Shown here piece after piece: positions 12,151 through 22,347 of a stretch of 48,650 bases of DNA. Position 1 is the stretch's first letter. The number at the start of each line of letters is the position of its first letter. A program made the translations under genes and the position numbers. Under the pieces are notes generated by a model. The model had not been told where the DNA came from. It saw only the letters and a program-made list of their open reading frames with translations, and made no database searches. The stretch covers positions 1-48,650 of the forward strand of contig JAAXXD010000010.1 in the NCBI GenBank assembly GCA_013334655.1, read 5' to 3'. The stretch is from Chlorobaculum sp. (GTDB taxonomy: Bacteria > Bacteroidota > Chlorobiia > Chlorobiales > Chlorobiaceae).

Positions 12151-12750
12151 TTACGGTTTTCCGCCGCGATGCGCCGAGCGCACGCGATAGAGGCGTTCGG
12201 TGAATCCACCCTCGGACTCGAACTGTTTTGCCAGACTGTGCACTTGCCTGTCGAGCAGGCTGCACGCGACAACTGTGAGCGTGAGCGCTGCATTGGCGGC
12301 GATTTCAGGAAGAGTTGACTCGATGGACGCCGCATTTTGCCCGCTTGACTGGCGCTCATATTCTTGCCGCACCCAGCCAGCTGCCTCGTTGGCGGTGGCG
12401 CATCGTTTGGCAATCAAGGCGCGGCGGCGCGGGTCTTTGGCGGGCCACAGGTTGAGATTTCGCTGTCGAAGAAAATCCTCGTAATCGAGGCGCAACTCTT
12501 CGAGACTTGCCCTCGCAATGTTCGTCAACTTGAGTTCGATCTTTTTGGAAGTCCCGGAGGCTTGGCTCCCTTCCGCAATATTCTGCACGCCGGATCGAGC
12601 CGCCTGAACCATCTGATCGTGAGTGCGGCTGCGCTTTTCGATAAACCGGTCGCAGAACCGCACGGTCACATCGTAGACCAACTGCGCAATCTGAAAGCTC
12701 TTCAACGTCCTGTAACCGCCATGTTCAGGGAGGAGTTGCGCTTTATGCAT
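12151..12750 (-). CDS. Four-helix-bundle protein (IVP/Avd-like, with suffix domain)
   Basis: The 199-residue protein has the features of the four-helix-bundle family first seen in 23S rRNA intervening sequences. These are FQIAQLVYDVTVRFCDRFI, then HDQMVQAARSGVQNIAEGS, then KLTNIARASLEELRLDYEDF. The tail with NLWPAKDPRRRALIAKR fits the variant with a so-called suffix domain. Related proteins include the accessory protein Avd of diversity-generating retroelements. No reverse transcriptase or template repeat is seen nearby, so a DGR role is not supported. The cellular function of stand-alone members is unknown. It lies downstream of dnaG on the same strand, separated by the tandem/inverted repeat at 12832-12930. 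Confidence 0.8.
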   Translation of the reverse strand: MHKAQLLPEHGGYRTLKSFQIAQLVYDVTVRFCDRFIEKRSRTHDQMVQAARSGVQNIAEGSQASGTSKKIELKLTNIARASLEELRLDYEDFLRQRNLNLWPAKDPRRRALIAKRCATANEAAGWVRQEYERQSSGQNAASIESTLPEIAANAALTLTVVACSLLDRQVHSLAKQFESEGGFTERLYRVRSAHRGGKP

Positions 12751-12831: not shown

Positions 12832-12930
12832 ATGGACGCTGATGGACTCTGATGGATTGAGTGGACAAAGAGGATTCACCCTTCAGTTGGGTAGAACCCG
12901 TCCATCAGCGTCCATCAATGTCCATTTCTC
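12832..12930. repeat. Period-10 GTCCAT array arranged as a long inverted repeat
   Basis: ATGGACGCTGATGGAC (12832-12847) and GTCCATCAGCGTCCAT (12900-12915) are a perfect 16-base inverted pair. Each arm is itself a short tandem array with a 10-base period: ATGGACGCTG, ATGGACTCTG and ATGGATTGAG on the left; TCCATCAGCG, TCCATCAATG and TCCATTTCTC on the right. The element lies just after the dnaG stop and may act as a transcript-end hairpin or a protein-binding array. There is no typical T-run. Confidence 0.7.
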
Positions 12931-12934
12931 CCAC

Positions 12935-14836
12935 TTACTCCCCCAAAATCCCTCTGATCGATTCATTCACCTCCTGCTCCGTCGCACGGAAATGCTTGTT
13001 GTGTTCGAGCAGCTCTCTCGAAAGCTGTTCCTGTTCGTGCGTGCTTGCGGCTGCACGGAGTTGCGCGAGGATTCGCTGCTTCTCCTTCTGCAACGGTTCG
13101 AGGACGAGCGTCTTGACCGCGACAAGGAAGTGGGAGAGGCAGCGGCGGGCGTGCTGTTCAAGTTCGGCGGGGGTTGGGCGCGTGGTTTCGTTGACCGGCA
13201 GCCGGAAGAGAATGTCGAAGGCGAGGTTGCGGGCCTCCTCCGTGCCGATGGAGCTGATCTCGGAGGAGATGTCGATGTGGCCGTCGCGGTCGCTCATCCC
13301 GCGGAAGCGGTTGACCAGATGGGCGACAATGGCTTGCGCGGCGGGGTTTTCGAGGTGGAACATCGTTTCGTGCGAGGCGGCGAAGGCGAGCACTTCGTTA
13401 CCGTACCAGGTGCTTTCGAGCAGCGCTTCGAGGAAGGTGCGCTCCGTCACCGAGAGCGGCGCTTGTCGCGCAGGTGGCTGCGGAGCCGGTTCGTCGCGGC
13501 GATGGCGCGGCTCTCGCGAAGCGCGACCGGTGTCGCTCGCGGCCATCACCTCGCGGAGCGTCTGGCGGCTGAGGTCAAGTTTTTTTGCCAGCTCGTCGAG
13601 GTACAGCTCCTTCTGCACCGGATCGGCGATGAGCGCGATGCTTTTTGTCATGGCCGAAACCGCTTTCGAGGCCGTGTCGGGACTCTCCATCCATCCGGCC
13701 TCCTGGTAGCAGCGGAGCTGGAAATCCTGGAAGGAGCTTTTTTCGCTCTCCAGCTCGCCGAGAAACGCCTCCCTGCCGTAGTTGCGGATGAAGCTGTCGG
13801 GATCTTCCGCGCCGGGCAGCATCACCACCCACGGCGTCAGCCCTTCGGCGAGCAGGATGTCGATGCCCGCGAGCATCGATTTCTTGCCCGCGTTGTCGCC
13901 GTCGTAAAGGAAGAGCACGCGCGAGGTGTAGCGCTTGAGGATTTTGGCCTGGTAGCGGGTGAGCGCGGTGCCGCACGAGGCGACCGTGTTGGTGAAGCCC
14001 GCCTGGTGCATGGCGATCACATCCATGTACCCCTCGACGAGAATCGCCGTCTCCTGCCGCCGGATTTCATTCTTGGCGGCGTGCATCCCGTAGAGCAACT
14101 TGGACTTTTCGAAGCTGGCGCTCTCCGGCGAGTTGATGTATTTGGGCGTCTGCGCGTCGGTGGAGAGCGTGCGCCCGCCGAAGCCCGCCACCTGCCCGCC
14201 AACAGTCATGATCGGGAAGATGACGCGGTTGCGGAACGTATCGTACAGCGTGTTGCGCTGCGGGTGGCGCGTCAGGATGCCGAGCGAGGTGAGCTGCTCG
14301 ACTGGCGCGCCGTCGCGCTCCGCTGCGTGGAGCAGGTAGTCCCACGACTCGGGCGCGAAGCCGAGGCCGAAGCGGCGGATGGTGGCGGCTTCGAGTCCGC
14401 GGCTGCCGGTCAGGTAGGCGAGGCCCACGCTTCCGGCTTCGCTTTGCAGCGTGCTGTGGAAAAGCCGCGCCGCCCAGCGCAGCGTGTCGAACTGGACGCT
14501 CTCCTGCTTCTCCTCCCGCCGTGGTTGCTCCTGCCGGTACTTGCCGGTGTCGATCCCGGCGCGTTTGGCCAGCATCTCGACCGCCTCGGGAAAGGTCACC
14601 TTCTCCATCTCCATGACGAAGGTGAAGACGTTACCCCCCTTGCCGCTTGAAAAACACTTGTAGATCTGCCTGTCGGGCGAGACGATGAACGACGGGGTCT
14701 TCTCCTGCGTGAAGGGCGAAAGCGCCTTGAAGCGCTGACCCGACGGTTGCAGCCGGACATAGTCCGACACGACATCAACAATGTCCGTGCTCTGGCGAAC
14801 CTCGTCGATCATGCGTTCCGGTATCATCCCTGCCAT
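12935..14836 (-). CDS. dnaG: DNA primase DnaG lacking most zinc-binding residues
   Basis: DnaG makes RNA primers at the replication fork. I place the start at 14836 (MAGMIPERMIDEVRQ, 633 residues), because AAGGA lies nine bases upstream and the protein then begins as DnaGs do. The N-terminal zinc-finger region keeps its shape (ALSPFTQEKTPSFIVSP...YKCFSSGKGGN). However, the four ligand positions, at 40, 43, 61 and 64 as in E. coli, read S, T, C and S. The TOPRIM part is intact: AILVEGYMDVIAMHQAGF and SRVLFLYDGDNAG. A C-terminal helical region that would bind DnaB follows. A decayed copy of the last 140 codons lies at 19697-20120. The long plus-strand frame over this gene is a shadow. Confidence 0.95.
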   Translation of the reverse strand: MAGMIPERMIDEVRQSTDIVDVVSDYVRLQPSGQRFKALSPFTQEKTPSFIVSPDRQIYKCFSSGKGGNVFTFVMEMEKVTFPEAVEMLAKRAGIDTGKYRQEQPRREEKQESVQFDTLRWAARLFHSTLQSEAGSVGLAYLTGSRGLEAATIRRFGLGFAPESWDYLLHAAERDGAPVEQLTSLGILTRHPQRNTLYDTFRNRVIFPIMTVGGQVAGFGGRTLSTDAQTPKYINSPESASFEKSKLLYGMHAAKNEIRRQETAILVEGYMDVIAMHQAGFTNTVASCGTALTRYQAKILKRYTSRVLFLYDGDNAGKKSMLAGIDILLAEGLTPWVVMLPGAEDPDSFIRNYGREAFLGELESEKSSFQDFQLRCYQEAGWMESPDTASKAVSAMTKSIALIADPVQKELYLDELAKKLDLSRQTLREVMAASDTGRASREPRHRRDEPAPQPPARQAPLSVTERTFLEALLESTWYGNEVLAFAASHETMFHLENPAAQAIVAHLVNRFRGMSDRDGHIDISSEISSIGTEEARNLAFDILFRLPVNETTRPTPAELEQHARRCLSHFLVAVKTLVLEPLQKEKQRILAQLRAAASTHEQEQLSRELLEHNKHFRATEQEVNESIRGILGE

Positions 14837-15222
14837 GCGTCCGTTTCCTTTTTTTTCTTCGATGCTATGATAAACCGAAAAAAATGAAATCGCAATCATC
14901 AACGGTTCGCCTTGGTCCGCGGGCGTTCGAACGCCATCCGGGGGCGATTTTCTGAAAAAAATTGCTTTTCGAGGCGATTTTCACCGATGTTCCTTGTCTG
15001 AGCGGTTGGTGAGTCAGCGCTTTATTACTACATTATCACAGTTATAGCCTCTGTTCTCTGAATGGCTTATGAATTATCGACCTTGCCGCCTCATGAAGTT
15101 TCCTTTCCCGAGAACCTGCCTCGCTGGCGGGCTTGCAAATGATCTTCCGGATGTGCTTGATTTGACTTGAGAGAGGGCTCGATCATGGATTCCGTTACTT
15201 CCAACATCTCAATACCAACCAT
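14837..15222. other. Intergenic region between divergent dnaG and exbB
   Basis: This 386-base gap must carry promoters for dnaG (minus) and the exb-tonB operon (plus). I see AT-rich stretches around 14870-14890 and 14955-15060. I see no RNA gene and no convincing 19-base Fur-type palindrome, although an iron-regulated operon follows. Confidence 0.5.
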
Positions 15223-15966
15223 ATGAAACAGGGATTTTTTACGGCGATACTGATTGTGGTGACCTACGCGGTATCCCTCGGTTTTTATGTCTGGATGGGC
15301 ACGACGCCACCGGAATCCATGTTCCACGCCGTGTGGAAAGGCGGGCCGGTCGTCTCGGTGCTGATGGCGCTGATCCTGATGGTGATCGCCTATATCGTCG
15401 AGCGCATCGTCGCCCTGAACAAGGCCTCCGGCCAAGGCTCGATCACCGAGTTCGTGCAGAGCCTCAAGCAGGATGTCGATTCGGGTTCCATCGACCAGGC
15501 GATCTCCCGCTGCGACGGCCATCAGAGTTCCCTCTCCGCCGTGATGCGCGCCGTGCTCGACCGCTACAAGATGCTCGCCGTGCACAACGTGACCGACCGC
15601 GAGAAGCGCATCAGCGAGATGCAGAAAGCGGTCGAGGAGGCGACGCTCATGGAGATGCCGCTGCTTGAAAAAAATCTCGTGGCCATCTCGACCATCGCCT
15701 CGATCTCGACGATGGTCGGCCTGCTCGGCACCACGCTCGGCATGATCCGCGCCTTCGCGGCGATGGCCACCAGCGGCGCGCCCGACGCGGTGCAGCTCTC
15801 GCTCGGCATCTCCGAGGCGCTCTTCAACACGGCGCTCGGCATCCTCGGCGGCATCATGGGCATCGTGACCTACAACGTTTTCACCAATCGCGTTGACCGC
15901 TTCAGCTACCAGATCGACGAGGCAGCGTTCTACATCATCCAGACCCTCGGCAGCAGTAAATCCTAA
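15223..15966 (+). CDS. exbB: ExbB/TolQ-type proton channel subunit
   Basis: This 247-residue inner-membrane protein belongs to the MotA/TolQ/ExbB family. With ExbD it uses the proton gradient to drive TonB. A first membrane helix lies at about residues 5-26 and a second at about 42-64. A cytoplasmic part with ISEMQKAVEEATLMEMPLLEKNLV follows, then two conserved helices, ASISTMVGLLGTTLGMIRAF and ISEALFNTALGILGGIMGIV, the latter with the usual small-residue spacing. An N-terminal membrane helix and a short first loop are typical of the family. exbD starts 9 bases after the stop. ExbB rather than TolQ is inferred from the linked tonB. Confidence 0.92.
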   Translation: MKQGFFTAILIVVTYAVSLGFYVWMGTTPPESMFHAVWKGGPVVSVLMALILMVIAYIVERIVALNKASGQGSITEFVQSLKQDVDSGSIDQAISRCDGHQSSLSAVMRAVLDRYKMLAVHNVTDREKRISEMQKAVEEATLMEMPLLEKNLVAISTIASISTMVGLLGTTLGMIRAFAAMATSGAPDAVQLSLGISEALFNTALGILGGIMGIVTYNVFTNRVDRFSYQIDEAAFYIIQTLGSSKS

Positions 15967-15975
15967 AGTCGAACC

Positions 15976-16509
15976 ATGTCCAAAATCAAGGCAAAAAGAG
16001 TAGGGTTCCGGCTCGACATGACGCCGATGGTCGATGTGGCGTTCCTGCTGTTGACCTTTTTCATGCTGACCACCAAGTTCCGTCCGCCGGAAGCGGTGAC
16101 CATCGACCTGCCGTCGTCGCACTCGAACATGAAGCTGCCGGAGTCCGACGTGCTGACCGTGACCGTCGCGAAGGACAACTCCATCTACATGGGTGTCTCG
16201 TCGCAGCGCACCAGGGAGCGGCTTTTCGATACGGTCGTCAAGCCGAAGCTCGAAAATGCTGGCGTCTCGAAGGCTGCGATGGCCGATTCGCTCAAGAAGT
16301 TCAGGCTCGATGAGAGCTTTAAAATCGAGAAAGAGGAGCTGGCGCGTTACATCATGATGTCGCGCTTCGCCGACCAGCGGCTCAGACCGGTAATCCGGGC
16401 GGACAACAAGGCCGATTATGAAGCTGTCAACTACGTCATCAAAGTATTCAAGAAGATGAACCTGCTCAACTTCAATCTCGTGACCGTTCTCGAAAGGGAG
16501 GTGCGCTGA
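15976..16509 (+). CDS. exbD: ExbD/TolR-type protein, first copy
   Basis: ExbD has one N-terminal membrane helix and a periplasmic domain, and carries the proton-conducting aspartate. Here the helix begins at [20 protein letters not shown], where the VDVAF aspartate is the expected protonatable residue. The periplasmic domain (about residues 40-177) ends [13 protein letters not shown]. At 177 residues it is longer than E. coli ExbD (141). The gene is followed by a second exbD with the same motif; stop and start share a base (TGATG), so the two are translationally coupled. Duplicate exbD genes are common in Bacteroidota/Chlorobi exb operons. Confidence 0.92.
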
Positions 16510-17039
16510 TGGGCATGGTTGATTCCCCCGGAGAGCGGCGCGGCTCGAAGCGAAGCAGTCGCCGTCACAAGCGGCTCGGGTTCCGGCTCGACATGACGCC
16601 GATGGTGGACGTGGCGTTTTTGCTGCTCACCTTTTTCATGCTGACCACCACCTTCGCCAAGTCGAACACGATGGAGATCAACATTCCGCCGGAAACGGGC
16701 GAGGTTGCCGTGGCCGAGCTGAACGTGATGACGCTCCGCGTGCCCGGCGACGGCTTCGCCTACTGGTCGCTTGGCGAGGCGGCTCCGCGGCGCGTTGCCT
16801 TGTACGACAGCGCCGACGCCCGCGCAACGCTTGGCGGCGAGCTTCGGCAGGTGTTGCGCCAAGAGACCGGCAACAATAAAAAGCTGGTGATCGTCGTCAG
16901 GATAAGCGACAAGGCCAAATACAAATCGCTGGTTGACATTATCGACGAGTTCAACCTGATGAAGATTGACCGTTTCAGTCTCGATGATTTTACCCCCCAG
17001 GACGAAGCTGAAATTCAGAAAGCCGTGGCCATGCGCTGA
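16509..17039 (+). CDS. exbD: ExbD/TolR-type protein, second copy
   Basis: The second ExbD (176 residues) starts with a basic tail rich in Ser and Arg. The motif [20 protein letters not shown] is identical at protein level to that of the first copy, with the catalytic aspartate kept. The periplasmic part differs strongly from the first copy, so the two probably form a hetero-oligomer or serve different partners (inference). The C-terminus contains [20 protein letters not shown], the typical end of the ExbD fold. It is followed after 27 bases by tonB with a good ribosome-binding site. Confidence 0.92.
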
Positions 17040-17066
17040 CGCTGTGATGCGTCGGAGGTGTGGTTA

Positions 17067-17894
17067 GTGAACCAGAAAACAGGAGTACGGGAAGTGTCGT
17101 CAAAGTTTCAAACAATGCATGAAGAGGCGGCCAGGCAGGCGCAGCGGTGGACTTTTCGTGAACAGTTCCTCGATACCGACCGCCTGAGGCAGATCAATTA
17201 TGGTAATCTCACCCTGCGGCGTGAGGCGCATCTCTTTTTGACCCACGGCGTGATTGTGGCCGTGCTGCTCTTGTCGCTCTTCTGGGCGGTCAGCGCCAAC
17301 TGGAACAGCGTCCTGGCCATGTTTGGCGGTGAGCCAGACAAGCAGACGGCGATTCAGTGCTACGAGGTAGTGACCAACGTGACGCAGTTGCCGCCGCCGC
17401 CGCCCATCGCCCCGGAGCCGCCAAAGGTGAGCGCGGCTGCCGCGCCGGTGGATGCGCCGAAGGTGGGCAAGATCAAGAAGGTGGCCGAAGCGCCGCCGGA
17501 TCAGACCTTCGCAACGCAGAAGGAGATCAAGCAGGCGATCACGCAAGGCCCGGCCTCGCAGGATGGCGGTGGATCGTCGTCGTGCGAAACGGTCGTGGAG
17601 TTCGTTAACTGCCAGAACCCGCCGACGATGGTCAGCACGCCGAGGCAGAATTACCCGGAAATGGCGAGAATCGCCGGTATCGAAGGGAAGGTTTTCGTGC
17701 GCGTGCTCATCAGCGAGGAGGGAAAGCCGATGAAAGCCGAGGTTGTCAAGCGTACTCCTCCGGACTGCACAATGTTCGACAAGGAGGCGACGCGCATCGC
17801 GATGGAGTCAAAGTACACCGCAGGAGTGCAGAACGGCAGAAGGGTGCGAGTCTGGATGACCATCCCGGTGCGGTTTACGCTGCATGAAGGATAG
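17067..17894 (+). CDS. tonB: TonB energy-transducing protein
   Basis: TonB couples the ExbBD motor to outer-membrane receptors. I choose the GTG at 17067 because GGAGG (17054-17058) lies eight bases before it; an upstream in-frame GTG overlaps that site. The 275-residue protein has an unusually long cytoplasmic N-terminus (about 55 residues), one membrane helix (THGVIVAVLLLSLFWAVSAN), a short proline stretch (LPPPPPIAPEPPKV) and a TonB C-terminal domain. The latter runs from NPPTMVSTPRQNYPEMARIA through EGKVFVRVLISEEGKPM to VWMTIPVRFTL. Two periplasmic cysteines (CETVVEFVNC) flank the domain entry. A second copy of the C-terminal domain follows as a separate gene. No receptor gene is near. 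Confidence 0.93.
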   Translation: MNQKTGVREVSSKFQTMHEEAARQAQRWTFREQFLDTDRLRQINYGNLTLRREAHLFLTHGVIVAVLLLSLFWAVSANWNSVLAMFGGEPDKQTAIQCYEVVTNVTQLPPPPPIAPEPPKVSAAAAPVDAPKVGKIKKVAEAPPDQTFATQKEIKQAITQGPASQDGGGSSSCETVVEFVNCQNPPTMVSTPRQNYPEMARIAGIEGKVFVRVLISEEGKPMKAEVVKRTPPDCTMFDKEATRIAMESKYTAGVQNGRRVRVWMTIPVRFTLHEG

Positions 17895-17955
17895 TTGATA
17901 ATGGATAATGGATAATTGTAGGGGCGGTTCCGATGCGTCGGGATCGCCCTGAACT
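17890..17955. repeat. Dispersed repeat: TGATAATGGATAATTG tail with GC-rich hairpin
   Basis: Directly after the tonB stop lie two copies of ATAATGG and ATAATTG. They are followed by AGGGGCGGTTCCGA paired with TCGGGATCGCCCT across a 4-base loop, with some G-U pairs. A similar AT-rich plus AGGGGCGG hairpin follows sppA at 29778. The element may end transcription of the exb-tonB operon. Confidence 0.6.
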
Positions 17956-17977
17956 GGTACAATAGTACCTATCAATC

Positions 17978-18397
17978 ATGAAGCTACTGATAAGGAAATT
18001 ATTTATAGTATCGCTTATCGTTCCATTCCATTCTATTTGGAATAATATTTCACTGGCTGGTAATAGATATATCGTGGTTGAGGTTATCGACTGTCAGAAT
18101 CCGCCGACGGTTGTCAGAACGCCGAGTTTAGTCTATCCGGAAACGGCAAGAATTTTAGGTCTCGAAGGCAAGGTTTTCGTGCGGGTGCTCATCGACGAGG
18201 ATGGCTGTCCTATAAAAGCCGAGATCGCCAAACGCATCCCTTTCGACTGCTCGGTGTTTGACTATGAAGCGGAGCGCATCGCGATGGAGTCAACGTACAC
18301 GCCGGGAGTTCTTAACGGCAGAAAGGTGCGAGTCTGGATGACCATTCCGATACGCTTCACGCTGCATGAAGGGGGCTATCCCGACTTGTCGGGATAG
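17978..18397 (+). CDS. Stand-alone TonB C-terminal domain protein with signal sequence
   Basis: This 139-residue protein is a near copy of the last 95 residues of the TonB encoded just upstream. Shared blocks include DCQNPPT-V, EGKVFVRVLI, ERIAMEST/K-YT-GV and GRKVRVWMTIPIRFTLHEG. Instead of the TonB membrane anchor and proline region it starts with MKLLIRKLFIVSLIVPFHSI, which looks like a signal peptide or a short anchor. Such a protein could sit in the periplasm and bind receptor TonB boxes, but it could not itself span to ExbBD unless anchored. Codon use in the first 35 codons is more AT-rich than in the rest, suggesting a new 5' end was joined to a duplicated domain. The last codons lie inside the terminator hairpin. 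Confidence 0.85.
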   Translation: MKLLIRKLFIVSLIVPFHSIWNNISLAGNRYIVVEVIDCQNPPTVVRTPSLVYPETARILGLEGKVFVRVLIDEDGCPIKAEIAKRIPFDCSVFDYEAERIAMESTYTPGVLNGRKVRVWMTIPIRFTLHEGGYPDLSG

Positions 18398-18400
18398 CCC
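18373..18400 (+). terminator. Perfect 13-bp hairpin overlapping a stop codon
   Basis: GGGCTATCCCGAC (18373-18385) and GTCGGGATAGCCC (18388-18400) pair perfectly around a 2-base loop. The stop codon TAG of the TonB-like gene lies in the right arm, so the final residues GYPDLSG are encoded by the hairpin. There is no T-run. It resembles mobile repeat hairpins as much as a terminator. Confidence 0.65.
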
Positions 18401-18767
18401 TCGATTGGCAAGAACGTTCATCCCGCCCTCGGACGATAACTCCGCTCAAACCTCACAACCTGCCCGCAACGCGATTCTTCAGGGCTAATAGAATGTGTTG
18501 AGCCGTCAATTGAATCTCTGTTGGTACATTCCCAGACACGATACTTCGGGAAAGTATCGGCACAGAATAAGCTCAAACCCCATAGCACTGCCGCAGGGGA
18601 ATTGATTGTCGGACGGGAGCAGCGCGTATTGTTGGATTGATGAGCAAGTTTGATGAACACCGTTCTATGTATATTTGCATAGAAAAAATCTTTTATTGTT
18701 GAAATATTGAATAAGTTAGTTGTCTGCTTATTCAATCTTCTACATCATTTAATCAACAGGGAGCATC
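18401..18767. other. Intergenic region, no gene recognised
   Basis: The stretch has mixed composition and becomes AT-rich towards the next gene, where its promoter should lie. A minus-strand frame over 18418-18735 has no family likeness. A small hairpin GATACTT (18540-18546) with AAGTATC (18552-18558) is present. AGGGAG seven bases before 18768 is the ribosome-binding site of the next gene. Confidence 0.45.
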
Positions 18768-19583
18768 ATGAGAAAAACGCTTGGATTATCAAAACTTTTA
18801 CTGATTCCGGTACTGCTGAGTCTGTTTATCAGCCTGTCATCCGTGGCGTTCGCCAACAACTTTTTTGCTGCTTACAACGTTGCACAGCAAGGAGTTACGG
18901 TCAGAACCCTGAATCTTCAGCAGGTCGGCGTCATACCGACAGGGCATCCAGTCGATGGTATTGCTGCTGGCCCGAACAATGATCTCTATATGGTTAACCG
19001 CAACCATATATACAACTACTCTCTGACAGGCGCGCTCATCAAGGATTTTCAGTTTCCTGATCCTGGCATTATCTACACTGATATTTCAGTGATGGGAAAC
19101 CGTGTCTACGTATCCTACAAAGGTTCTCAAAGAGGAGTATCGATCCGCGATCTCAATCTCAATCAGCTCTCGATCATTCAAACTCCCTTTGAAATCAATG
19201 GAGTAGCTGCCGGAACAAGCAACGATCTTTACCTTGCCTCCGGCAACAGGCTCTACCGGTATGGAACAAATGGTCAGGTGCTTGCGACCATGGTATTTCC
19301 TGATGCAGGAATCGTTTATACCGACGTAGCTGTGATATGCGGAAGGCTGCTGGCCACCTATTCCGGTTCACAAAAAGGATTCACGGTCAGGGATCTCGTG
19401 ACCTTGAACCAGTACTCGTTTGTCCCGACTCCTTTCGATATTGGAGGCATTGTTGGCGGTGCTGATAACGACGTCTATATCAGCGGCGCAAACAAGCTCT
19501 ACAACTACGCACTGACTGGTCAGTTGAAACAGTCATTTGCATGGCCACAGGCGAACCTTGTCTATGGCGATTTGACAAAGTAA
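18768..19583 (+). CDS. Secreted protein of three about 80-residue repeats (propeller-like)
   Basis: A signal peptide is clear: MRKTL, a hydrophobic stretch of about 20 residues and a likely cleavage after SVAFA. The mature part is built of three similar units of about 80 residues. Each carries a Q-K/R-GV/F-T/S-V/I-RDL core, then GI/VAAGxxNDLY, a Y-NY or YRYG turn, a TGQ or NGQ turn, and FPDxGIIYTD. The NDLY and VYxSYxGS elements look like beta-propeller blades with two blade-sized strands per unit, so a small or multimeric propeller is possible. No known family is recognised. The gene is alone, preceded by AGGGAG as ribosome-binding site. It is exported, perhaps to the periplasm or cell surface. 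Confidence 0.8.
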   Translation: MRKTLGLSKLLLIPVLLSLFISLSSVAFANNFFAAYNVAQQGVTVRTLNLQQVGVIPTGHPVDGIAAGPNNDLYMVNRNHIYNYSLTGALIKDFQFPDPGIIYTDISVMGNRVYVSYKGSQRGVSIRDLNLNQLSIIQTPFEINGVAAGTSNDLYLASGNRLYRYGTNGQVLATMVFPDAGIVYTDVAVICGRLLATYSGSQKGFTVRDLVTLNQYSFVPTPFDIGGIVGGADNDVYISGANKLYNYALTGQLKQSFAWPQANLVYGDLTK

Positions 19584-19696
19584 ATCCTGCCTCTTTGATA
19601 TGCCCGCTCATCGCACTGAGATGGCGGGCATATCGCAATGGTATAGCCGCCCGGAAGTTGAGGGTGACCAGCCAACCTTTCCTGACATTTTCCTTT

Positions 19697-20120
19697 TCAC
19701 TCCCCCAGAATCGCGCTGATCGAGTCGTTGACCTCCTGCTCCATCGCGCGGAACTGCTTGTTGTGTTCGAGCAGCTCTCTTGAGAGCTGTTCCTGTTCGT
19801 GCGCGGTTGTGGCTGTTCGGAGTTGCGCGATGATTTGCTGCTTCTCTTATTGCAGCGGTTCGAGCACGAGCGTCTTGACTGTGACGAGGAAGTGGGAAAG
19901 GCAGCGGCGAGCGTGCTGTTCGAGTTCGGCGGGGGGGCGAGCGCGTGATTTCATTGACCGGCAGGAGGAAGAGGAGGGCGATGACGGGGGTCTCCTCCAT
20001 GCCGATGGAGCTGATCTCCGAGGTGACGTCGATGTGAGCGTCGTGGTCGCTCAGCCCGCGGAATCGCCCGACCAGATGAACGACAATGGCTTGCGCGGCG
20101 GGATGGTCGGGGTGGAACAT
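19697..20120 (-). pseudogene. Decayed copy of the 3' end of dnaG
   Basis: On the minus strand the translation starts MFHPDHPAAQAIVVHLVGRF and runs to a GILGE-type end just like DnaG residues from about 490 onward (MFHLENPAAQAIVAHLVNRF). The DNA matches 12935-13366 at very roughly 85 percent by eye. The copy has small deletions after SSIGMEE and a longer run of G near 19930 that shifts the frame. An in-frame TAA replaces a lysine codon near 19850. It ends exactly at the dnaG stop region (CTCCCCCAGAATC against CTCCCCCAAAATC) and begins abruptly at 20120. No function is expected; it records an internal duplication. Confidence 0.9.
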
Positions 20121-20145
20121 CGAGCCACACCCGGCAACTCATACG

Positions 20146-21255
20146 TCAAAACGCAAATCGTCCGCGATCGTCGAATTGTACTCGGAGGTTCGGCAAATCC
20201 TCGGCAGTCAACCGCTGTATCGCTTGCTGCGCCTTTGCAGAGCTGTCGATAACCGGGCCTCCCTCCCCCTGTTGCTCGACCGAAAAAATCCGCCCATTGA
20301 TGAAATCGCCATTTTTGTCAACCCGGATCCGAAAAACAGGCGCGAAACCGTTCGGCCCTTTCAGGTTAAACTTTCCGTAGGTGCAGAAGTTACCCATCGA
20401 ATAGGCGATAAATTTCCCCTTGTACAGATCGATGGCCCTCGCCACATGCGGGCCGTGACCGAGCACGACATCCGCGCCGGAGTCGATGGACAGCCGGGCG
20501 AACCGGTAAACGTCGCCCCGATTTTCTCCGTAAAACATCTCGCCTTGCCTCGGGACATGAGTGCGGCTCGCTCCCTCCGCGCCACCGTGGAACGACACAA
20601 TCACAATGTCGCACTGCTTTTTCAGGCCGGATACGACCATTCTGACGAGATCGTCATCGTTGATATCGAGGCTACCCGTCCCTGGAGCGAACGCGGTAAA
20701 CCCGATTTTGACTCCTTTTCTCACGACAATTGCCGTGGGACAAAACTCCTGTCCGGCATAGTGTATCCCTTTTTCTGCAAGCACCCGGCAGGTACTCCGC
20801 TTGCCGCGAATGCCAAAATCGTTCATGTGATTGTTGGCTATGGAAAGCAGATCAAACCCGGCATCCTTGAGATAACCGGCGACGTATTCAGGTTGCCTGA
20901 AGGCAAAACACTTCGACGGATCGGCGCATTTTTTTACTACAGGCCCCTCATCGAGAATCGGCCCTTCGAGATTGCCGAAGGTCAGGTCGGCATCAGCAAG
21001 AATAGAGACAACCGGTTCAAGCAGCGACCGGCCGAACGGAGGCAGACTATCGGCTGAGGGGTAGCTCGATCCCATCATGATATCGCCGACGGCCACAATC
21101 GTCAGTGCACCGCTTTCTGAGGAGTCCGCCGGAACGCCCTTCCGCTGCCCCTCCCCTCGCGTTGCCGGGAGCCCCTCGCTGGCAAAGCAGAAAAAGAGCA
21201 GCGCCGCGCAAAGCGATGCGCGGACAGGACGGCTGAAAAAAAGTGTTCGGTTCAT
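20146..21255 (-). CDS. CapA-family (poly-gamma-glutamate capsule type) exported phosphatase-like protein
   Basis: The 369-residue protein belongs to the CapA/PgsA metallophosphatase-like family. I place the start at 21255 (MNRTLFFSRPVRASLCAALL), which gives a normal signal peptide; the frame is open 26 codons further. Family motifs are in order: VAVGDIMMG, DLTFGNLEGP, LLSIANNHMNDFG, IVSFHGGAE, VVLGHGPHVARAI and FIAYSMGNF. These supply the Asp, Asn and His residues of a two-metal site. CapA proteins are tied to polyglutamate or other envelope polymer synthesis, but many act outside capsule operons, and no pgsB/C is here. It lies between the dnaG remnant and an MBOAT remnant, so it may be all that remains of a longer envelope locus. 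Confidence 0.85.
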   Translation of the reverse strand: MNRTLFFSRPVRASLCAALLFFCFASEGLPATRGEGQRKGVPADSSESGALTIVAVGDIMMGSSYPSADSLPPFGRSLLEPVVSILADADLTFGNLEGPILDEGPVVKKCADPSKCFAFRQPEYVAGYLKDAGFDLLSIANNHMNDFGIRGKRSTCRVLAEKGIHYAGQEFCPTAIVVRKGVKIGFTAFAPGTGSLDINDDDLVRMVVSGLKKQCDIVIVSFHGGAEGASRTHVPRQGEMFYGENRGDVYRFARLSIDSGADVVLGHGPHVARAIDLYKGKFIAYSMGNFCTYGKFNLKGPNGFAPVFRIRVDKNGDFINGRIFSVEQQGEGGPVIDSSAKAQQAIQRLTAEDLPNLRVQFDDRGRFAF

Positions 21256-21268
21256 GGCTGAAAATCGT

Positions 21269-21613
21269 TCAGAATTGATGGCTTTCGCTCTCGTTTGCGA
21301 GCTTGAAGTAAAACAGAAGGTCAAGATTGACAATAATACTCATGACCAGCAGAGAGACCCTTGCCCAATGGCGCGACTGCCGGGAGATAAGATTTGAGAG
21401 GAGATAATCGGTAATCGCCGAGATGATGACCAGCACAACATACGATCCGCTGGCTTTGTAAAAAAATAGAGAGAAAAACCTGAGAGAATGATCGTACGAA
21501 TGGTGTAGTGGTTGCGAAACAGGTAATACAAAACAATGAACACCGTAAAAAAAATAGACGAAAAACCCGTTAAACAAAAGCGGGTTCCTGGGATCGTTCA
21601 ACGACTGCCCCAT
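21269..21613 (-). pseudogene. N-terminal remnant of an MBOAT O-acyltransferase (AlgI-like), frameshifted
   Basis: Starting at the ATG at 21613 the translation reads MGQSLNDPRNPLLFNGFFVY, then must shift frame to give TVFIVLYYLFRNHYTIRTII and LSGFSLYFF. It then shifts back to YKASGSYVVLVIISAITDYL followed by a segment ending IIVNLDLLFYFKLAN. This is the start of a membrane-bound O-acyltransferase such as AlgI. Both frame changes fall in T-runs on this strand (8 T near 21550, 7 T near 21465). The remaining 350 or so residues are missing, and capA begins directly after. Intact relatives acetylate polysaccharides. Sequencing error in the homopolymers is possible, but the truncation is real. Confidence 0.8.
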
Positions 21614-21631
21614 AATGGCAGCCATGTGTGT

Positions 21632-21901
21632 CTGTTCGAGTCTGTAAGAACAACTGTGTAAACGGCCATCTGCAAATTGGAATCCTCCCCTTGAATTTTA
21701 TCGATAATACATTCAGCAACGCGCCCCAATTCTGGATTGGCATCGTCCACTTTTTGGCGATGTTTTGCATGGCCAGATACATCAGTTTCAGGATCGATTC
21801 GTCGTTCGGGAATGATCCCTTGGTTTTGAGCACTTTGCACAGCGAGCGGTTCAGCGACTCAATGGCGTTGGTCGTGTACATGGCCTTCCGGGCTTCACCC
21901 A
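21632..21901 (-). mobile_element. IS256-family transposase remnant, C-terminal part
   Basis: The translation RKAMYTTNAIESLNRSLCKV followed by LKTKGSFPNDESILKLMYLA and KKWTMPIQNWGALLN is the highly conserved C-terminal region of IS256 (mutator-type) transposases. Only about 70 residues remain, without the upstream catalytic domain. Near 21640-21660 the minus strand has GTTTACACAGTTGTTC, which resembles an IS256-type terminal repeat, so the right end of the element probably lies there. It adjoins the MBOAT remnant on one side and the intron fragment on the other. The exact left limit is an estimate. Confidence 0.85.
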
Positions 21902-22340
21902 TCCAGTTTTGTCGGTGAACTTCACTCTCGTGAACATCTGAGACATCCGGTTCTGAGAACAGGCGTTTCCTCTCCAACTCCTTCAGCCCTTCGCTCCATT
22001 CCTGCGAGCTACTATGGCCTCTGCTGACTTCTCGCTCCGGCTTGCGCCGTCGCCCTTTAAGGCATAAGGCGAGATATCCCCAGATAAGAACGCAATCCTT
22101 CCCCGCGCAACCGCCGGATTTACGCCGCCTGAACCTTGACCACGAAAGCTTTGCAGATACATGCCTGCTCGCCCTGTTCGGCTTCGCCTTCAATCCGGTT
22201 CTTGTCCATCGGCTCGCGGCTTCGTTCCGCGCTTCCTCTCCACACTCGGTCGCCCTCATGCAGTTGCGCTTCAGTTCGTTCGCTGTGGTCAACTCACGGA
22301 AGGACTTCCACCTCCAGGATTGCGCCAATGCTGGGCGCAC
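21902..22340 (-). mobile_element. 5' fragment of a group II intron (no complete reverse transcriptase)
   Basis: On the minus strand the sequence begins GTGCGCCCAGCATTGGCGCA, matching the GUGYG start of group II introns. It goes on with TGGAGGTGGAAGTCC, GATGGACAAGAACCGGATT, GGCGAAGCCGAACAGGGCGA, AAATCCGGCGGTTGCGCGG and GAAGTCAGCAGAGGCCATAG, blocks I recognise from the RNA domain part of bacterial introns. It then breaks off near 21900, where transposase sequence starts. No maturase/reverse-transcriptase gene and no domain V remain, so it cannot splice. The 5' junction lies 8 bases after a terminator-like hairpin belonging to the PEP-CTERM gene. The 3' limit is approximate. Confidence 0.8.
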
Positions 22341-22347
22341 AAACATC

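Follow-up and report, generated by a model that had tools for sequence, protein, structure and literature searches.

A decayed dnaG 3'-end copy in a species-variable stretch downstream of tonB in Chlorobaculum sp.

Results

The dnaG locus and its surroundings

The window analysed here is a 48,650-nucleotide stretch of DNA from a draft genome of Chlorobaculum sp. (assembly GCA_013334655.1, contig JAAXXD010000010.1, our contig C97; the draft is 84.5% complete with 4% contamination). It holds the only full-length dnaG of the assembly, an exb-tonB block on the opposite strand and, beyond tonB, a series of features that ends in a fragment of dnaG beside a capA-like gene (Table 1). Across the congeneric loci examined, in a comparison set of 20 further species of the genus, dnaG, exbB, exbD, exbD and tonB keep one order, with the block split over two contigs in the nearest species (G008). 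A protein of the 23S rRNA-intervening-sequence type (Pfam; 12151-12750) adjoins dnaG in the window and is present there in several congeners too.

Table 1. Features of the window from dnaG to the capA-like gene.
Feature	Position	Strand	Evidence or remark
dnaG, intact parent	12935..14836	-	Pfam Zn_ribbon_DnaG, DNAG_N, Toprim, DnaB_bind; adjoins exbB in congeners
exbB-exbD-exbD-tonB, conserved block	15223..17894	+	gene order shared by congeneric loci
TonB-like ORF, partial copy of tonB 3' part with different N-terminus	17978..18397	+	75% DNA identity to own tonB; TonB_C
271-aa secreted repeat protein	18768..19583	+	no match in 20 congeners; present in sister genus
Strong hairpin, possible terminator, no T run	19596..19635		MFE -31.3 kcal/mol for 19585-19650, z -3.9
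dnaG 3'-end pseudogene	19697..20120 (homology 19688-20122)	-	84% DNA identity to dnaG codons ~491-633; branch omega ~1.1
TAA replacing Lys codon	19847..19849	-	alignments
7-G run (7 C on - strand), +1 frameshift	19931..19937	-	alignment with 12 functional dnaGs
capA-like gene (PGA_cap)	20146..21333	-	Pfam PF09587; ends 26 bp before fragment, same strand

A repeat search paired 12926-13173 with 19688-19935 (86% identity) and 13208-13365 with 19965-20122 (82%), both as ungapped blocks in the same orientation. By blastn against its own genome the fragment matched dnaG at 84% over about 424 bp (471 bits, E about 2e-133), a match far beyond chance and close to the figure of about 85 percent that a sequence-only reading of this DNA had estimated; dnaG and the fragment were the only two matching places in the assembly. 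In pairwise alignment the copies match over 424-430 bp, from a few bases beyond the dnaG stop to 20122, and no homology to dnaG was found beyond that point. The fragment is therefore a 5'-truncated copy of the last ~142 dnaG codons, with the abrupt start and the end at the dnaG stop region that the same reading had described, and with exbB, exbD, exbD, tonB, the TonB-like ORF and the secreted protein between the two copies, as it had also stated.

Two disabling lesions proposed in that reading, an in-frame stop and a frameshift, were both read directly in the sequence, alongside a 6-bp gap (deletion) upstream of the frameshift that is seen in the alignments. The run of seven G holds one extra base relative to the aligned functional dnaG genes, and the premature stop (TTA on the + strand) stands where the window's own dnaG has AAG and where nearly all aligned relatives likewise encode lysine. 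The final stop of the fragment is TGA, against TAA in the own dnaG. The further proposal that the fragment keeps only the DnaB-binding region found no support: Pfam places DnaB_bind (PF10410) near residues 370-425 in DnaG, whereas the copy covers residues from about 491 to 633, no PDB chain was matched by sequence with the C-terminal 206 amino acids of DnaG, and the broken frame leaves no open frame over any recognised DnaG domain. By position, the copied part presumably corresponds to the C-terminal helicase-binding domain of other primases. An out-of-frame ORF of 170 amino acids spans 19608-20120 and matched no Pfam family.

Substitution pattern of the fragment

Branch lengths were estimated by a three-point comparison over 138 shared codons, with dnaG of the window's genome and of the nearest species as references. 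The fragment branch has dN 0.095 and dS 0.086, giving omega 1.1 (bootstrap 95% 0.47-14.7), against omega 0.09 (0.02-0.24; dS 0.218) for the own dnaG branch and 0.15 for that of the nearest species; the fragment had an omega no higher than that of the own dnaG in 0.05% of 2000 codon bootstraps. Changes found only in the fragment fall at codon positions 1/2/3 as 8/8/3, and those found only in the own dnaG as 1/1/7 (Fisher p 0.003; p 0.014 when the fragment is set against all core tips). Such a pattern marks DNA that has been free of coding constraint ever since the copy was made. The dS of the fragment is less than half that of the own dnaG, though the tree makes both about equally old, and this could reflect the limited sample of 138 codons or a more complicated past. 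Base errors in the draft genome are possible, but too few to yield the whole decay pattern. A contaminant's intact dnaG was ruled out as the source of the fragment, since the copy is disrupted and evolves neutrally.

The variable stretch downstream of tonB

In many congeners the genes that follow tonB differ. The nearest species has Fic-like and SIR2/STAND proteins there, G020 a TIR protein and an ISL3 transposase, G001 a PIN-like ORF and a methyltransferase-like ORF (named by eye), and G002 and G016 other ORFs. Comparison with the same locus in other Chlorobiaceae, which the sequence-only reading had suggested, gave a divided picture, in which the dnaG-exb-tonB block is conserved while the genes after tonB vary and the nearest species has no fragment at the matching site downstream of tonB, as far as its draft shows. 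The fragment is debris in this species-variable stretch. Several further observations concern this region and its surroundings. In the stretch after tonB (17895-20145 in the window; L031, L035, L028, L029 and L034), which varies strongly between species, defence-like genes (SIR2/STAND, TIR, Fic, PIN, methyltransferase) are frequent, followed by a conserved frr-like gene. Just downstream of tonB, at 17895-17925, lies a short tandem sequence (gataatggataatg...) that occurs in many places in nearly all congeners. At 21570-22346 there is a remnant of a Mutator-family transposase, of which the C-terminal part only is present. No consensus terminator was found at the hairpin between the secreted-protein gene and the fragment.

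That this stretch grew by repeated copying, as had been proposed, was borne out in part. The TonB-like gene is a partial copy of tonB, and its unique changes fall at codon positions 1/2/3 as 10/7/13; it is more diverged than the dnaG fragment and probably the product of a separate event. The secreted protein has close relatives in about ten sister-genus genomes, including a Chlorobium ferrooxidans contig, and its absence from the congeners together with its presence in that genus points to acquisition. Since, within the order, the sister genus alone yielded relatives of this protein, and since capA stands in another setting in two congeners, acquisition and rearrangement probably also built the stretch. 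No dnaG tail or capA lies alongside the sister-genus loci of the secreted protein, and no dnaG tail lies downstream of capA in G003 and G004.

Copied gene ends elsewhere in the group

In a search across the genus with the full dnaG-tonB block as query, nearly all ectopic pieces longer than 60 bp stem from a dnaG or tonB 3' end; one case also has an internal tonB piece, and exbB, exbD and the dnaG 5' part gave none. Tails of dnaG shorter than the window fragment occur in G009 and G010, where about 110-145 bp adjoin a CorC-like gene and a second tail of 46 bp lies beyond a RelE-type toxin and its helix-turn-helix partner (L013:1501-2445; L024:7437-8352); the match to the toxin in G009 contains one TAG. 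Tails of tonB occur in G011, in G015 and elsewhere in the window's assembly, on a contig where a fragment of the 3' part (L023:3585-4404; G000:C39), broken by about 530 bp, runs into the intergenic sequence downstream of tonB. The same assembly holds a second exbB(3' end)-exbD-exbD-tonB on a contig of 4332 bp (L022; G000:C31), 88% identical in DNA to that of the window, which is perhaps from a co-binned related strain. Downstream of hemL in G011 stands a HipBA-like module (named by eye), beyond which the final 144 bp of that gene, together with its terminator-like sequence, recur at 97% (L080:855-2745; G011:C1:160855-162745).

These cases suggest recurrent copying of gene ends among these bacteria, which we take as a lead rather than a result. 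Three generalisations were dropped. A survey of 1.2 Mb (half) of the complete genome G011 turned up only a few genuine gene fragments, from 3' ends and gene interiors alike, without the clear excess of 3' ends that a genus-wide bias would give. Letters common to the last codons (AGCGC) had prompted the idea that the window fragment and the G009/G010 tails form one family, on which the tree is neutral (AU 0.37). Nor are RelE-type modules generally flanked by gene tails, as only a few of 30 loci with a RelE-type toxin have flanking repeats, and these are of other kinds.

Discussion

The fragment is very probably a pseudogene, a partial dnaG copy that lacks the 5' part, retains the last ~142 codons, drifts without selection and has no function of its own. 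Homology, lesions, the neutral pattern, the intact parent and the absence of the fragment at the tonB site of the nearest species and at the capA sites of G003 and G004 together lead to this view, and the earlier proposal of a decayed dnaG copy is upheld by identity, lesions, substitution pattern and tree alike.

In a maximum-likelihood tree the fragment groups with the own dnaG and that of the nearest species (support 84/95.7), with no branching order within the trio. Measured against the rest of the core set, the fragment and the own dnaG alone have no derived bases in common, and seven states are loosely common to the fragment and the nearest species alone. Because of this tree and the lack of any base common to the fragment and the own dnaG alone, the age of the copy is put at about that of the split from the nearest species. 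It was made around the time of that separation and landed, or stayed as a leftover, in the variable DNA beyond tonB, where it has since drifted free of selection; illegitimate recombination, or a partial duplication while this stretch was turning over, is the presumed cause.

The same distribution of bases is also what would be seen if the fragment had arrived, already dead, with DNA of an unsampled close relative rather than having been copied in this genome, and the adjoining secreted protein, which in the genus occurs only in this species and otherwise in the sister genus, fits such an import. However, neither the grouping of the two intact genes to the exclusion of the fragment (AU 0.49) nor that of the fragment with the own dnaG (AU 0.125) is rejected, and none of the loci examined has a dnaG tail linked with either capA or the secreted protein, so that we consider import possible but somewhat improbable. 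A leftover of a tandem duplication of the dnaG-exb-tonB block would account for the orientation of the two pieces, TonB-like and dnaG, which matches that of their parents, and for the order dnaG, tonB, tonB piece, dnaG tail. It is nevertheless unlikely, as the TonB-like piece (75% to own tonB) is more diverged than the dnaG tail (85%) and lies on the wrong side of it for a single tandem event, and as no ectopic exbB or exbD remnant was found in the window.

The loci of G009 and G010, in which a RelE-type pair stands between two dnaG tails, and the hemL tail that flanks the module of G011 offer a model in which duplication of a gene end accompanies insertion of a toxin-antitoxin module that is later lost. 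For the window fragment this origin is distinctly unlikely: no toxin-antitoxin gene adjoins it, its grouping with the G009/G010 tails is neither favoured nor rejected, and repeats on both sides are confined to the few RelE-type loci noted above. That the 3' ends of dnaG, tonB and hemL were all copied by one recurrent process tied to insertion and loss of small modules, with the window fragment as one product, is a broader proposal that we regard as very unlikely. A functional leftover, whether a short DnaG C-terminal peptide begun at the ATG that sits at the truncation point or a + strand RNA pairing with dnaG mRNA through matches of which the longest exact one is 26 bp, is extremely improbable given the frameshift, the stop and the neutral omega, the failure to find a convincing promoter or an Rfam match in the fragment region, and the strong hairpin that separates the upstream + strand gene from the fragment.

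By itself the pseudogene matters little. It is a neutrally drifting relic that flags rapid change next to a conserved operon, and automated annotation could be misled into calling it a second, truncated primase. Gene 3' ends doubled around toxin-antitoxin pairs would bear on how such modules travel when they bring no recombinase.

Duplications of gene 3' ends occur at the integration sites of genomic islands. The window fragment is similar to these in being 5'-truncated, in ending at the parent stop and in lying some kilobases off in the same orientation. Unlike in such islands, the DNA between the two copies includes genes that are kept beside dnaG genus-wide, on its 5' side, and no integrase was recognised by reading among the ORFs of 12935-20120. 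With the conserved exb-tonB block between the copies and no integrase seen, an integrative element is not supported as the source. Of the marks of a reverse-transcribed copy, the 5' truncation is the one observed. Prokaryotic pseudogenes that arise from duplication or failed transfer have been surveyed (Liu et al. 2004, PMC522871), and, like them, the window fragment is a disabled partial copy of a known gene. Our literature search found no dnaG fragment of comparable kind. Nothing essential sets the fragment apart from that class, its parent being a core replication gene that is intact nearby, and with homology to this parent, disabling lesions and a neutral branch of its own, it is an ordinary duplication pseudogene of dnaG.
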